DNA of 64,000 nt, from positions 1 to 64,000 of the forward strand of contig NZ_BJUB01000001.1 of the NCBI RefSeq assembly GCF_007989805.1, read 5' to 3'. Positions 12,731 to 20,585 of this stretch are shown here, piece after piece. The notes beneath the pieces are model-generated. The model was not told the origin of the DNA and made no database searches. It saw only the letters and a list, made by a program, of their open reading frames with translations. The translations under genes were made by a program, and so were the position numbers. This DNA comes from Cellulomonas xylanilytica. Its GTDB lineage: Bacteria; Actinomycetota; Actinomycetes; Actinomycetales; Cellulomonadaceae. Numbering within the stretch: position 1 is the first letter of the stretch; each line of letters starts with the position of its first letter.

Positions 12731-12843
12731 CCGTCGAGCGTGGCACGACGGCCCCCCTGGCGCGCGTGCTGCCGGACCGCTCCCGGGTCCGACGTCGGCT
12801 CCCTCGTATGCTGGCCGTCGACCGCGACCAGGAGGTAACAGCT

Positions 12844-14628
12844 GTGCCGATGGGCCGTCGCGCCTCCGTGGTGGTCGCGCTGGTCGCCGTGCTCCCCGTG
12901 CTCGCTCTGGCCGGCTGCACGGACGACGGTGCGGTCGGGCCGACGCCGACGCCGAGCACAGCCGCACCGACCCCCACCCCGACGCCGACGCCCACGCCGG
13001 TCTCCGCCCGGCTCGAGGCACCGCCCGAGCCGGCGACCGTCCTGCCCGGGGTGACGCCGCAGGACGCGGCGCTCGAGGCGTCGCGCGCGGTGTTCGCCGC
13101 GGCACCCGTGGTGGTCGTCGCGCCGGTCGACGACGTCGCCGCCCAGCTCACCGCCGCGTCGGCGGCCGTCGCGCTCGGCGCCCCCGTGCTGGTGACCGGA
13201 CCCGGGCTCGACGCGGCCCCGGTCCTCGCCGAGCTGACGCGGCTCGGGACGCAGGCCGTCGTCGTGGTCGGAGCGGCCGCCCTGACGCCTCCGGACGAGC
13301 TGACGGCGGTGCTCGTCGCCGCCGGTGCCGGTGCGGACGCCCTGCGCGCGGCCACGGGGATGCGGTTCGGGGCGGCGACCGAGGTCGCCGCGGGGCAGGA
13401 GGCGGGAGCCGTCCGCGCGCTCGCAGGCCCGCGGCCGGCGGTGCTGGTGGTTGCCGGTGCCGTGCCCGTCCCCGCGCCCTCGCCGAGCCCGTCAGGATCG
13501 TCGACCCGGTCGCCGAGCGCGTCGCCGCCACCCTCGCCCACCGCGTCGCCGCAACCCGCGCTCCCGCCGGTCCGTCCGCCGGCGGCCGTCACCGGCACGG
13601 TCGCGCTCACCGGGGTCGGCGTCGACCCGCTCCCCGCGCTGGCGACGCTGCGAGCAGCGGGCGTGCCGGTGCTCGACACCCCGGGCGGCGACCCGCGTGC
13701 CACGACGCCCGGCGTCCAGGCCCTCGCTGCGGCCGCGCCGCAGCGCACGATCGCGCTCGGCGCCGCGTTCGGCCCGGCGGACCGGCTGGCCCGCCGGGTG
13801 GCCACGGCGTCGACCGGGGCGCTGCTGGGCGGCGGCGGTCAGCTGGTGTTCCCGCAGGTCCCCGGGGTGCCGGGCAAGAAGTACGTGGCGCTGTACGGGA
13901 CCCCCGGCTCGTCGGCGCTGGGGGTGCTGGGGGAGCAGGACGTGCCCGCCACGCTGGCCCGCGCCGACGCCACCGCCGCGCCATACCGGTCGCTCACGGC
14001 GGACGCCGTCGTGCCCGCGGTGGAGATCATCGCCACCATCGCGTCAGCCGGACCGGGGGAGGACGGCAACTACTCGCGCGAGCGGCCCGTCGAGGAGCTC
14101 CGCCCGCTGGTGGAGGCCGCCGGAGCCGCGGGCATGGCCGTGGTCCTGGACCTGCAGCCGGGCCGCACCGACTTCCTCACGCAGGCCCAGCAGTACGCCG
14201 ACCTGCTCGCGCTCCCGTACGTGGGCCTCGCTCTCGACCCCGAGTGGCGCCTGGCCCCGGACCAGGTGCACCTGCGGCAGATCGGGTCGGTCGGCGTCGA
14301 CGAGGTCAACGGCGTCGCGACGTGGCTCGCGGACTTCACGGCCCAGCGTGCGCTGCCGCAGAAGATGCTCGTCCTGCACCAGTTCGCGGGCCGGATGATC
14401 CAGGAACGGGCGCGGCTCGACACGTCCCGGGACGAGCTGGCGATCGTGATCCACGTCGACGGCCAGGGCTCGCAGCCGGCGAAGGCGGGAACCTGGAACG
14501 CGCTGCGCACGGACGCGCCGCCCGTGCACTGGGGCTGGAAGAACTTCTACGACGAGGACGTCCCGATGCTGGACCCGACCCAGACCTACCAGGTCCAGCC
14601 GGTCCCGGACCTGGTCACGTACCAGTAG
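12844..14628 (+). CDS. Secreted lipoprotein with cell-wall-binding-2-like region
   Basis: A 594-residue lipoprotein. The lipobox LALAGC places the acylated Cys at residue 25, followed by a Thr/Pro-rich linker (TPTP repeats, about 35-55). Residues roughly 80-190 alternate hydrophobic strands with GAPVLVTGPGLD and LGTQAVVVVGAAAL, the pattern of the cell-wall-binding repeat 2 family, and similar strands recur near 230-310. The C-terminal 230 residues read like a barrel enzyme domain (AGMAVVLDLQPG, LGLALDPEWRL-type strand, MLVLHQF, IVIHVDGQG, HWGWKNFYDED) but I cannot name it. The GTG at 12844 is chosen because AGGAGGT lies seven bases upstream. Its 3' end overlaps the convergent 67-residue gene by 14 bases. 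Function unknown. Confidence 0.8.
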   Translation: MPMGRRASVVVALVAVLPVLALAGCTDDGAVGPTPTPSTAAPTPTPTPTPTPVSARLEAPPEPATVLPGVTPQDAALEASRAVFAAAPVVVVAPVDDVAAQLTAASAAVALGAPVLVTGPGLDAAPVLAELTRLGTQAVVVVGAAALTPPDELTAVLVAAGAGADALRAATGMRFGAATEVAAGQEAGAVRALAGPRPAVLVVAGAVPVPAPSPSPSGSSTRSPSASPPPSPTASPQPALPPVRPPAAVTGTVALTGVGVDPLPALATLRAAGVPVLDTPGGDPRATTPGVQALAAAAPQRTIALGAAFGPADRLARRVATASTGALLGGGGQLVFPQVPGVPGKKYVALYGTPGSSALGVLGEQDVPATLARADATAAPYRSLTADAVVPAVEIIATIASAGPGEDGNYSRERPVEELRPLVEAAGAAGMAVVLDLQPGRTDFLTQAQQYADLLALPYVGLALDPEWRLAPDQVHLRQIGSVGVDEVNGVATWLADFTAQRALPQKMLVLHQFAGRMIQERARLDTSRDELAIVIHVDGQGSQPAKAGTWNALRTDAPPVHWGWKNFYDEDVPMLDPTQTYQVQPVPDLVTYQ

Positions 14629-16575: not shown

Positions 16576-18201
16576 ATGAGCGAGCCGCGCAGCCCGGAGC
16601 CGGGCGTCGAGCGACGGTGGTGGCCGCGGGCTCTCGTGGTGGTCGCCGCCGTGCTCGTCGCGCTCACGTTCGGGGTCACGACGGCGTCCGTCGAGAGCAG
16701 CCTGGGCCCGCACGAGGCCCGGTACGACGTCACCACCGACGACACGGTGACCATCGACCTCGGCCCGCTCGGCACGCTCGAGATCGACTCGCCCCTGCCG
16801 CTGACGCTCGGCGTCCGGGTGACCGTGCAGGAGATCCCGGCGTCCGTCACCGAGCTCACCCCGGCGCGCACCCTGGCGGCGCTCAGCGGAGACCTGCAGA
16901 GCTACCTGCAGTTCTTCTCCGGCCCGCAGGGGACGATCCAGGACGTGGCGCGGGCGCTGGGCGTCGACGCGCTCGGGCGGACCGCCCTGGCGCTCGCGGT
17001 GCTCGTCGGCGGCTGGTACCTGGCCCGGCTGCTGGTCGGTGCGGCGCGCCGGGCGGAGCTGCACGACCGGCTGCGGCCGCACCTGCGCTCGGCGGTCGTC
17101 GGGGTCGTCGTCGTCGCGCTCGTCGGCACCGTCGTCACCTCGAGCCTCGGGCGCCGCGACCGGCCGTCGGTGTCCCAGCGGGCCTCGTCGGTGTTCGACG
17201 GCACGCACCTCGAGGGGGCTCGGGTGACGGGACGGCTCGGCGGTGTGATCGACACCTACGGCGGGCAGGTGGTCGCGGAGCTGCGCAAGAACGAGAAGTT
17301 CTACGCGGAGGCGAACGCGTCGGTGCAGGCCGCCTGGGACGAGCGGGAGGAGCTCCTGGCCGCCGACCCCGAGCCGTCCCCGACCGGCAGCCCGGAGCCA
17401 CGGGCGAGCGCACCGGCCGACGACGAGGACCTGGTGACCGTCGTCGTCGTCTCCGACCTGCACTGCAACGTCGGCATGGCACCGCTCATCCGGACGGTGG
17501 TGGAGAGCTCCGAGGCCGACCTCGTCCTCGACGCCGGTGACACGACGATCAACGGGACCTCGGTCGAGCAGTACTGCGTGACGACCTTCGCGCGCGCCGT
17601 CCCCGACGGCGTGCAGCTGGTGACCTCGCCGGGCAACCACGACTCCGCCGAGACGTCGAAGAACTACGCACGGGCAGGAGCCACGGTGCTGGACGGCGCG
17701 GTGGTCGAGGTCGACGGCCTGCGCATCCTCGGCGACAGCGACCCCAACGAGACGCGCGTCGGCGCCGGTGGCACGGCGCAGGCGGGCAAGGAGACCGCGT
17801 CCGAGGAGGCGCAGCGCCTCGCCGAGGTCGCCTGCGACGACCCCGACGGCGTGGACCTCCTGCTGATCCACACGCCCGCCGTCGGCCAGCAGACCCTGGA
17901 CGACGGTTGTGCCGCCGCGCAGATCTCGGGGCACCTGCACCGTCGGTACGGTCCCGAGCGGGTGGGCCGCAGCGTCCGCTACATCAGCTCGAGCACCGCC
18001 GGCGCCACCCTGGGCCAGGCGACCGTCGGACCGCTCAACGGCGTCGCCGAGATGACGGTGCTGCGCTGGGATCCCGACACCCGGCGGTTCGTCGACTACC
18101 AGCTGGTCCAGGTGCACCCGGACACCACCGCGACCGTCTCGCCCCGCCTGCAGTGGCCCGGTCCTCTCGCGCCTCAGGTCGTCGGCCCTTCACCCGTGTG
18201 A
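16576..18201 (+). CDS. Membrane-anchored metallophosphoesterase
   Basis: A 541-residue protein with an N-terminal membrane segment (about 18-38), two further spans (about 135-155 and 173-192), and a C-terminal calcineurin-like phosphoesterase domain. The metal-binding motifs are complete: SDLH at 293-296, GD within DAGDTT near 319, GNHD near 354 and GHLH near 453. A Pro/Ser-rich stretch around 270-285 separates the membrane part from the enzyme. The odd number of predicted spans places the catalytic domain opposite the N-terminus, probably outside. The substrate could be a nucleotide, cell-wall phosphodiester or phosphoprotein. It likely has its own leaderless promoter. Confidence 0.87.
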   Translation: MSEPRSPEPGVERRWWPRALVVVAAVLVALTFGVTTASVESSLGPHEARYDVTTDDTVTIDLGPLGTLEIDSPLPLTLGVRVTVQEIPASVTELTPARTLAALSGDLQSYLQFFSGPQGTIQDVARALGVDALGRTALALAVLVGGWYLARLLVGAARRAELHDRLRPHLRSAVVGVVVVALVGTVVTSSLGRRDRPSVSQRASSVFDGTHLEGARVTGRLGGVIDTYGGQVVAELRKNEKFYAEANASVQAAWDEREELLAADPEPSPTGSPEPRASAPADDEDLVTVVVVSDLHCNVGMAPLIRTVVESSEADLVLDAGDTTINGTSVEQYCVTTFARAVPDGVQLVTSPGNHDSAETSKNYARAGATVLDGAVVEVDGLRILGDSDPNETRVGAGGTAQAGKETASEEAQRLAEVACDDPDGVDLLLIHTPAVGQQTLDDGCAAAQISGHLHRRYGPERVGRSVRYISSSTAGATLGQATVGPLNGVAEMTVLRWDPDTRRFVDYQLVQVHPDTTATVSPRLQWPGPLAPQVVGPSPV

Positions 18202-18281
18202 TCTGGGTCACCCTGACCTAGGGTGGGTGTGCGTGCCGGCCTGAGCTCCTGTCAGGTCGGTCCGTGCGAGGGGGTGGACAG

Positions 18282-19856
18282 GTGACCCGAGGAGCCGTGC
18301 GGGTGGGCGGTGGGGAGCGGGACGCGCGAGCGCGTCCCGTCGTTCGCGCCGCGCTGACCTGCGCCTGCGTCCTCGTCGGCACCCTCGCCCTCGCCCCGTC
18401 GGCGTCCGCCGCCTCCGGCGAGGGGGAGCTGCGCCCCGGCGAGTCCCTCGGGTCGGGGCAGGGGCTCGTCTCGGCGGACGGGACCCAGACGCTCGTCGTC
18501 CAGCCCGACGGTGTGCTCGCGCTGTTCGGTGCCGAGCCCGAGCCGCGCTGGGTGTCCGGCCCTGCGGTGCCCGGCTCGTCCCTGGTCGTCGCCCCGAGCG
18601 GCGACGTGGCGCTGACGGCACCCGACGGCACCGTCACCTGGCGCCCGGACGCACCCGCCACGGTAGGGTCCCGGCTCGTCCTCCAGGACGACGGCGACCT
18701 CGTCGTCCTCGACCCGCAGGGCACCCAGGTGTGGGAGTCCGGGACCGCCGTGCGGCCGTCGATCCTCCCGTCGGGCGGTGTCCTCGAGCCGGGGGACGCC
18801 CTGTCCTCGCCCGACGGCCGCCACACGCTCCTCGTGCTCGACGACGGCGACGTCGCGCTGCTCGGCCCGGACGCCGCGACGCGGTGGTCCACGGGCACCG
18901 ACCAGCCGGGCGCCACCCTGACCCTGAGCGAGGACGGCAACCTCGTCGTCGCCGACCCGGACGGCGACCGCCTGTGGCGCAGCCGCACGGCCGGCCACCC
19001 CGGGTCGTCCCTGGTCCTGCAGGACGACGGCGACCTCGTCCTGTACGACGTCGCCGGGACCGCCGTGTGGAGCACCGGGACCGTTGTCGGTCCGCCCGCG
19101 CTGGCCGCCGGGACGCCGCTGGCCGCCGGCGGCCGGCTCACGTCCCCCGACGGGCACCTGCACCTCGAGCTGGGTGCCGCCGGGCTCGTCCTCGCGTACG
19201 ACGACACGGTCGTCTGGACCGCGGAGGCCCCCGGCGCGACGGCACTGGCGGTGCAGGGCGACGGCGACGTCGTGCTCACCGGCGCTGACGGCGCGGTCCT
19301 GTGGGCCAGCGCGACGCCGGGCCACCCGGGGGCGACGCTCCAGCTGGAGGAGGGCGCGATGCTGCTGCGCGCGCCGACCGGGCAGGAGCTGTGGCGCGTC
19401 GACGTCCCGGTCGAGCTCGTCGCGGGCAGCCAGGTGGCCACGGACTGCGACGACGTGTCCGGGCCGGTCCCGCAGGCGGACACCGTCGTCACCGCGTTCG
19501 GGGTGCGGGTCCACGCGTGCCTCGCCGACGCCGTCGACGCGCTCATGACCGCCGCGCGTGCCGACGGCATCGAGCTGCGCGCCTGGGGCTGGCGAAGCTC
19601 CAGCCAGCAGATCGCGCTGCGCGCCGCCAACTGCAGCGCCACCGAGGCCGACCCCTCGGTGGTCACCTGCCGCCCGCAGACCGCCCCGCCCGGCACCTCG
19701 CGCCACGAGCGTGGCCTCGCCCTCGACTTCACCGTCGCCGGATCGGTGCTGCGGTCCGGGTCGCCGGCCTTCGCCTGGCTGAGCCGGCACGCGCAGGACT
19801 ACGGCCTGGAGAACCTCCCCGGCGAGCCGTGGCACTGGAGCGTCGACGGCTGGTGA
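18282..19856 (+). CDS. Secreted B-lectin repeat protein with C-terminal VanY-type D,D-carboxypeptidase domain
   Basis: A 524-residue exported protein. The signal peptide spans about residues 20-45 (Ala/Leu-rich, ending SASA). Residues roughly 50-385 form bulb-lectin-like repeats built on LVLQDDGDLVVLD, LTLSEDGNLVVAD and LVLQDDGDLVLYD, each closing on a W-x-S-x-T strand; this resembles the mannose-binding QxDxNxVxY motif, partly altered. The last 120 residues are a VanY peptidase: SRHERGLALDF gives zinc ligands His475 and Asp482, and EPWHW gives catalytic Glu515 and zinc ligand His518. It should trim D-Ala from peptidoglycan stem peptides while the lectin part holds it to a cell-surface glycan. 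GTG 18282 is chosen because AGGGGG lies seven bases upstream. Confidence 0.87.
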   Translation: MTRGAVRVGGGERDARARPVVRAALTCACVLVGTLALAPSASAASGEGELRPGESLGSGQGLVSADGTQTLVVQPDGVLALFGAEPEPRWVSGPAVPGSSLVVAPSGDVALTAPDGTVTWRPDAPATVGSRLVLQDDGDLVVLDPQGTQVWESGTAVRPSILPSGGVLEPGDALSSPDGRHTLLVLDDGDVALLGPDAATRWSTGTDQPGATLTLSEDGNLVVADPDGDRLWRSRTAGHPGSSLVLQDDGDLVLYDVAGTAVWSTGTVVGPPALAAGTPLAAGGRLTSPDGHLHLELGAAGLVLAYDDTVVWTAEAPGATALAVQGDGDVVLTGADGAVLWASATPGHPGATLQLEEGAMLLRAPTGQELWRVDVPVELVAGSQVATDCDDVSGPVPQADTVVTAFGVRVHACLADAVDALMTAARADGIELRAWGWRSSSQQIALRAANCSATEADPSVVTCRPQTAPPGTSRHERGLALDFTVAGSVLRSGSPAFAWLSRHAQDYGLENLPGEPWHWSVDGW

Positions 19857-19892: not shown

Positions 19893-20585
19893 GTGAGCAC
19901 GCCGACGACACCCGAGCTGAGCGCCGTCACGCAGGACTACCTCAAGGTCGTGTGGTCGGCTCGCGAGTGGTCGGATCAGCCGGTCACCACCAAGATGCTG
20001 GCCACCCGCCTCGGCGTCGGGGCCTCCACCGTCTCCGAGACCGTCCGCCGGCTCGCCGACAGCGGCCTGGTCACCCACCAGCCCTACGGCGCCGTCGAGC
20101 TCACGGCCGACGGCGAGCGCCACGCGCTCGCGGTCGTCCGCCGCCACCGGCTGGTCGAGACGTTCCTGGTGGAGATGCTCGGCTACGGCTGGGACGAGGT
20201 CCACGACGAGGCCGAGGTGCTCGAGCACGCGGTCTCCGACCTGTTCGTGGAGCGGCTCTCGGCACGTCTCGGGCACCCCACCCGCGACCCGCACGGGGAT
20301 CCGATCCCCGGCTCCGACGGCTCGGTCGACGTCCCGGCGGCCAGCGTGCTGTGGGACGTCGAGCCGGGGGAGTGGGCCGTCGCACGGATCTCCGACGCGG
20401 ACCCGGGCCTGCTGCGCTACCTCGAGTCGGTGGACCTGCTGCTCGACGCGCCGGTCACGGTGGTCGAGCGCCGCACGGTCGCCGGGGTGATCTCGATCCG
20501 TGCCGCGGGCTCCACCGTCGACCTCGGCGAGGTCGCGGCGCGCGCCATCTGGCTGGTCCCCGCGGCCGGGCACCCCGTACGCTGA
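19893..20585 (+). CDS. DtxR/MntR family metal-dependent regulator
   Basis: A 230-residue metalloregulator. The N-terminal winged helix (TKMLATRLGVGASTVSETVRRLADSGLVTHQPYGAVELTADGE, about residues 31-73) is the DtxR DNA-binding domain. The dimerisation helix carries HRLVETFLVEMLGYGWDEVHDEAEVLEHAVSD with the Glu and His metal ligands, and DPHGDPIP begins the linker to a C-terminal SH3-like FeoA domain. The C-terminal domain makes it more like the long iron or manganese sensors than short MntR. It probably represses metal uptake genes located elsewhere. It starts at GTG 19893 after a TAGGCT hexamer. The MFS pump gene 71 bases downstream may be a target, but no metal-box match is clear. Confidence 0.9.
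   Translation: MSTPTTPELSAVTQDYLKVVWSAREWSDQPVTTKMLATRLGVGASTVSETVRRLADSGLVTHQPYGAVELTADGERHALAVVRRHRLVETFLVEMLGYGWDEVHDEAEVLEHAVSDLFVERLSARLGHPTRDPHGDPIPGSDGSVDVPAASVLWDVEPGEWAVARISDADPGLLRYLESVDLLLDAPVTVVERRTVAGVISIRAAGSTVDLGEVAARAIWLVPAAGHPVR

Follow-up and report, generated by a model that had tools for sequence, protein, structure and literature searches.

The window, a 64,000-nucleotide stretch of Cellulomonas xylanilytica DNA, carries on its forward strand a gene whose predicted product is a secreted protein comprising a signal peptide, three tandem B_lectin domains and a C-terminal zinc peptidase of the M15B (VanY/LdcB) type. The gene and the features around it are as follows.

16576-18201, + strand: upstream neighbour, a Metallophos (calcineurin-like phosphoesterase) protein
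18268-18274: putative ribosome-binding site GAGGGGG
18282-19856, + strand: whole gene, 524 amino acids, GTG start, TGA stop (open reading frame list; orthologues over nearly the full length)
18282-18410, + strand: signal peptide, residues 1-43, read by eye, with A41-S-A43 preceding the cut
18423-18755, + strand: B_lectin domain 1, about residues 48-158, with W90, W120 and W151 (Trp pattern, structural model, hhalign against domain 2)
18756-19094, + strand: B_lectin domain 2, about residues 159-271, with W202, W232 and W263 (Pfam, VIA-align); holds the best-kept sugar site
19095-19409, + strand: B_lectin domain 3, about residues 272-376, with W312, W341 and W371; the most divergent (hhalign)
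19434-19853, + strand: VanY (M15B) zinc peptidase, residues 385-524 (Pfam PF02557, solved chains, fold, conservation)
19893-20585, + strand: downstream neighbour, a DtxR-type metal-dependent repressor with a FeoA domain

An alternative in-frame GTG is located at 18264; the start at 18282, chosen in an earlier note on this DNA, was kept because GAGGGGG sits seven bases before it. Many other open reading frames on both strands overlap the gene, as expected at ~76% GC. A chance frame or frame artefact was rejected, as this frame contains Pfam domains and has long orthologues. The signal peptide proposed earlier was borne out by eye, Ala43 being nearly invariant (at least 97% of 38 orthologues), and neither a lipobox nor a C-terminal anchor was seen by eye in the protein. 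Pfam assigns B_lectin (PF01453) at 48.5 bits (cut-off 32.4, E 1.4e-12), with the best stretch at residues 182-234, and VanY (PF02557) at 42.9 bits (cut-off 25, E 5.2e-11). An AlphaFold2 model built from 33 sequences has a mean pLDDT of 83.2, with values below 50 at residues 1-41 and, taken per ten residues, of 79-95 from residue 51 to residue 380; its pTM of 0.49 leaves the mutual placement of the domains unsure.

The lectin module and its sugar sites

Three B_lectin domains, each of three subdomains, are marked in the sequence by nine Trp residues (90, 120, 151, 202, 232, 263, 312, 341 and 371), which follow one another at steps of 29-51 residues, every one of them being conserved in 37 or 38 of 38 orthologues. 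Pairwise hhalign probabilities were 99.9 for domain 1 against domain 2, 99.6 for domain 3 against domain 2 and 99.4 for domain 3 against domain 1, with the VanY domain, taken as negative control, giving 0.4 and 0.1 against lectin domains. The middle domain of the model aligns with plant, fungal and UmbA4 lectin domains at Z scores of 16-20 and rmsd values of 1.0-1.9 (VIA-align, best 14 matches). The β-prism II fold was assigned to this domain by model comparison and to domains 1 and 3 by homology to domain 2. The B-lectin assignment of the earlier note stands in its fold, with Pfam above cut-off, although what were described there as repeats are three whole domains. Fold and above-cut-off Pfam match are shared with the monocot mannose-binding lectins of snowdrop and Gastrodia, from which the fusion differs in lacking the canonical sugar motif QxDxNxVxY, in presenting three tandem domains and in being joined to a peptidase.

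Bacterial B_lectin domains are known best from bacteriocins. The best NCBIfam profile is that of the putidacin L1 family (NF033557, E 1.2e-44), although its 152.8 bits fall below the cut-off of 275, and the top Foldseek matches of the model are putidacin L1 (LlpA) and pyocin L1, which share the tandem arrangement of B_lectin domains. Superposition over both domains of these proteins is nevertheless poor (rmsd about 14-18), and the fusion is distinguished from them by its signal peptide, third lectin domain and enzyme, and by the lack of full sugar sites. The closest single structure, tied with plant and fungal lectins, is a region of UmbA4 from Streptomyces umbrella particles (9oee), taken here as the bulb lectin of that protein; it aligns at Z 20.0, with 44% identity across 115 residues. 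UmbA4 differs in that a trypsin-like domain and a β-propeller flank its lectin, and in that the propeller, through two sites, recognises the wall glycan of the target (accessible text of PMC13274773).

A β-propeller in place of the lectin was also considered. The best chains found by phmmer are designed propellers (Cake9, E 6.1e-22, in up to seven short pieces of which the best reaches 4e-4), ahead of putidacin L1 (1.1e-16), and propellers also occur among the Foldseek matches of the model. The propellers align at Z scores of only about 5, in contrast to 14-20 for most single-domain lectin matches and 10.9 for two partial ones; the propeller was rejected and these matches are read as repeat likeness.

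In the accessible parts of two papers (PMC3585409, PMC3916391), the B_lectin sugar motif is QxDxNxVxY. At its Q, D, N, V and Y positions the nine sites of the protein read QDVAF, ASDAT, QDDVL, LDDAL, SDNVA, QDDVY, EGALL, QDDVT and LEALR, so that none of the nine is canonical. The closest, Q247-D249-D251-V253-Y255, departs from the motif by Asn to Asp only; the motif Asn is retained at one site and the Tyr at one, never together. The LQDDGDLVxxD motif pointed out in the earlier note is present, but it is not the canonical sugar motif. Among 49 distinct fusions, 47 contain no canonical site, one (L102) contains one, inside its lectin part, and one (L096) contains six; with L096, described below, set aside, 47 of the 48 distinct proteins of the window's class are without any canonical site and one has one. 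Mannose binding through a canonical site is not supported for this protein, and the mannose guidance previously proposed is weakened by the absence of that site here and throughout nearly all of its class. Tethering by sugar is likewise unproven, since the canonical motif is absent.

Conservation is uneven along the module. Across 38 orthologues, the subdomains of W151, W232, W263 and W341 retain on average 2.45-3.11 of the five key residues, and those of W120, W312 and W371 retain 0.55, 0.32 and 0.45, respectively. The best site of each orthologue keeps four of the five residues in 24 of the 38, three in 12 and two in the other two. Some residues, among them the turn Asp and Gly, may be retained because the fold needs them. 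As judged from these residues, the lectin module most likely has altered or lost sugar sites. A module that no longer binds any sugar, and gives the peptidase a stalk, a spacer or a surface for docking to other proteins, is a possible but rather unlikely explanation: it would account for the near absence of canonical sites from the class and for the three poorly kept subdomains, and it agrees with the LlpA crystals, in which, according to the accessible text, a B_lectin site with Tyr replaced by Gln took up no methyl-mannoside (PMC3585409), but it does not sit well with the four better-kept subdomains and with the many orthologues that hold four of five residues at one site. The accessible text on pyocin L1 reports B_lectin sites that bind D-rhamnose in preference to D-mannose (PMC3916391), and that on the wall of C. 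flavigena describes a sugar content dominated by rhamnose, with lesser amounts of mannose and ribose, the form of the rhamnose not being given (PMC3035266). Going by these two accounts, the right kind of sugars may be present for the lectin module, although the sites here differ from those of pyocin L1.

The peptidase domain

The zinc ligands H475, D482 and H518 and the catalytic E515, at exactly the positions claimed in the earlier note, are invariant in all 38 aligned orthologues, as are R438 and Q443; S473 is conserved in at least 97% of the 38 and in 33 of 33 sequences of another alignment. The zinc motif is intact in all 49 distinct fusions. Residues R438, Q443, S473, H475, D482, E515 and H518 are spaced like Arg120, Gln125, Ser151, His153, Asp160, Glu204 and His207 of SpLdcB, a match of spacing and not a structural superposition, and in the accessible text on SpLdcB these residues are described as binding zinc, serving catalysis or recognising the terminal D-Ala (PMC4087270). 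The fusion thus resembles the M15B enzymes LdcB/DacB and VanYB in zinc ligands, catalytic Glu and substrate-site Arg, Gln and Ser at equal spacing, and differs from them in its added lectin module and in four conserved Cys of the peptidase domain (389, 413, 451 and 463).

Three solved D-Ala-D-Ala carboxypeptidase chains match by sequence (E 4.8e-7 to 8.6e-7). In fold, the L,D-carboxypeptidase BaLdcB (Z 13.1) and the D,D-carboxypeptidase VanYB (Z 12.8) are tied, with 24-29% identity in these alignments, and the NCBIfam LdcB and VanXY models match far below their cut-offs. Because the fold is equally close to both kinds of enzyme, VanY is a family label and does not name the bond that is cut; the D,D activity given in the earlier note was assumed from that name. 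The genome contains seven VanY-family places, that is, six besides the fusion gene, so that the role of the fusion may be redundant, and a single B_lectin place was found, the fusion gene itself. A VanY of glycopeptide resistance, removing the terminal D-Ala of precursors, would explain the Pfam family name and the resemblance to the VanYB structures, but BaLdcB matches as well, the genome has the six further family members, and no van gene is found among those immediately adjacent genes that have a Pfam match; we hold this explanation to be very improbable.

Related proteins, distribution and locus

Six further proteins (L088-L093), from five Cellulomonas genomes and one genome of a sister genus (G168), contain B_lectin on an NlpC/P60 peptidase, assigned by Pfam for L088, L089 and L093 and by sequence likeness for L090-L092. 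They resemble the fusion in joining a lectin to a peptidoglycan peptidase in related bacteria, and differ from it in their catalytic domain and in retaining six exact canonical sites each, in about nine subdomains in L089 and six in the others. A second kind of B_lectin-VanY fusion, also with six exact canonical sites, is encoded by L096:1871-3346 (+) (G056:C357, 13870-15345). Its lectin and the one of the NlpC/P60-linked L090 share 82% identity, which looks, at the level of sequence, like an exchange of the catalytic domain, and the 10.9 kb around it contain no match to the usual neighbours of the window's gene. In a tree of VanY domains, L096 groups with L094 (support 98/87) and the window's class forms a separate group (96/87). 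By BLAST, however, the L096 VanY domain scores almost as well against L018, a member of the window's class (159 vs 164 bits), so the separateness of L096 rests on the tree and the lectin. L094 (800-2527, -, in G008) is a Cellulomonas VanY protein in which a Tachylectin-type domain (Pfam 30.2 bits, cut-off 29.8) replaces B_lectin. In our reading of the sequences, VanY domains of this group appear to have acquired sugar-binding modules more than once.

Two longer Cellulomonas proteins that match the lectin profile, L097 (G050) and L107 (G017), have no exact canonical site either, so changed sites are not limited to VanY fusions. Another genome of the phylum (G925) encodes CHAP plus B_lectin (L124:841-2193, +), a further pairing of wall hydrolase and lectin.

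Of 81 genomes of the genus, 61 give at least one match at E 1e-10; by our reading of the matches, 48 show lectin and VanY in one open frame, 47 with the window's class and one (G056) with the other kind. Among named genomes, in a search that finds close relatives only, 56 loci were recovered, of which 23 match over lectin and enzyme, all labelled Cellulomonas and with 49-85% identity in the best segment, and 33 match the VanY part alone. A mis-assembled fusion was rejected in view of its occurrence in these 48 genomes and 23 named records, two sets that overlap. On the question of domain architecture raised previously, none of the 140 genomes outside the genus in a family set of 221 showed the fusion (at most six candidates scored per genome), the 11 genomes with a fusion in an order set of 396 all belong to the genus (at most three), and in a phylum set of 396 genomes, queried with L096, a match across both parts came from the window's own genome alone (at most four); weak fusions may escape these searches. 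Nine VanY-bearing frames from the phylum search contained no lectin domain when run against Pfam.

The phosphoesterase and DtxR genes flank the fusion gene on the same sides in all 23 named loci. The fusion was not seen in 33 of the 81 genus genomes, five of which are less than 90% complete. When 32 of these (all but G009) were searched for both neighbours, the two abut, ~50-135 bases apart, in six (G028, G038, G039, G047, G068 and G070); other genes lie between them in G013 and G027, and in the remaining 24 they lie far from each other or on separate contigs, or at least one of them was not recovered. The fusion gene is therefore dispensable, since these genomes show none and in six the neighbours abut, and its distribution is compatible with two histories, long-standing presence in the genus with several losses, or acquisition and subsequent loss. 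In G027 (L117) and G013 (L118), the genes between phosphoesterase and repressor look, by eye, to be of glyoxalase and sigma-factor type. C. septica has a shortened fusion of 465 amino acids on a 3.3-kb contig (L023/L099); its lectin match leaves out profile positions from about 223 to 278, through either a genuine deletion or faulty assembly. The window also encodes, at 12766-14628 (+), a Pro-/Ala-rich protein of 620 amino acids for which Pfam gave nothing at E 1e-4; a relative lies close to the fusion gene at 20 of the 23 named loci, and the three remaining ones are short or cut.

A mobile or phage origin was rejected: none of 50,697 phage records matches, and each of the nine matching plasmid records, none over 80% of the query, covers just one of the two parts, lectin or VanY. 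These same searches bear on the possibility that the protein is an antagonistic effector, its lectin aiming the peptidase at competitors' walls after the manner of lectin-like bacteriocins or umbrella particles. The putidacin L1 profile, best in NCBIfam albeit below cut-off, and UmbA4 as closest single structure speak for such a role, but the locus is fixed, none of the adjacent genes (one of which has no Pfam match) was recognised as being of immunity type, and stem-peptide trimming is non-lytic. Taken together with the phage and plasmid results, this makes an effector improbable. A secreted enzyme that takes D-Ala as a nutrient from the peptidoglycan of dead cells or competitors is no better placed and would likewise be surprising: export and the lack of a visible anchor agree with it, yet the three-domain lectin module is left unexplained and the only possible transporter gene alongside is an MFS gene of unknown substrate.

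Proposed function

The reading that we favour on balance, by no wide measure of confidence, is that of a secreted M15B zinc carboxypeptidase that trims stem peptides while held in the producer's own envelope by the three-domain lectin module. The protein would be exported via its signal peptide and retained in or on the producer's own wall by the lectin module, which would bind a wall polymer through altered sites, one of them best kept, and not mannose through canonical ones; the zinc enzyme would then take the terminal D-Ala off stem peptides, in a D,D or an L,D reaction. The reading as a peptidase of the own wall is supported by the intact active site, the fold, the long-kept gene at a fixed locus and the sibling lectin-NlpC/P60 proteins. 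Both the own wall and that of a competitor had been suggested as the site of editing; action on the own wall would fit better than attack, because the locus is fixed across the genus, trimming does not lyse and no immunity-type gene is recognised next to the fusion.

A more elaborate scenario, which we put forward tentatively and consider doubtful, combines multiple uptakes of sugar-binding modules (a three-domain B_lectin, a B_lectin of two domains that also occurs on an NlpC/P60 protein, and a Tachylectin) with a B_lectin pocket whose preference, in the main lineage, would have shifted through Asn to Asp and replacement of Tyr: a wall polymer of the genus would be bound in place of mannose, and trimming would be confined to places where this polymer is displayed.

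Glycan-binding modules on wall hydrolases are already familiar, and the B_lectin-VanY pairing is rated here as a variant of this design. The view that the pairing is not a standard architecture agrees with the literature searched, with subscription journals and preprints outside its scope, in which queries on B_lectin with VanY, on Cellulomonas with VanY and lectin, and on mannose-binding lectin with VanY (the last judged by titles and the opening lines of abstracts) returned no description of it; nor did the pairing appear among the entries listed for wider queries. The practical value is modest and the enzyme class ordinary. The occurrence in one genus of two natural forms, one with full sugar sites and one in which nearly all members have changed sites, allows one to ask what purpose the lectin serves and whether the places of peptidoglycan editing are set by wall glycans.
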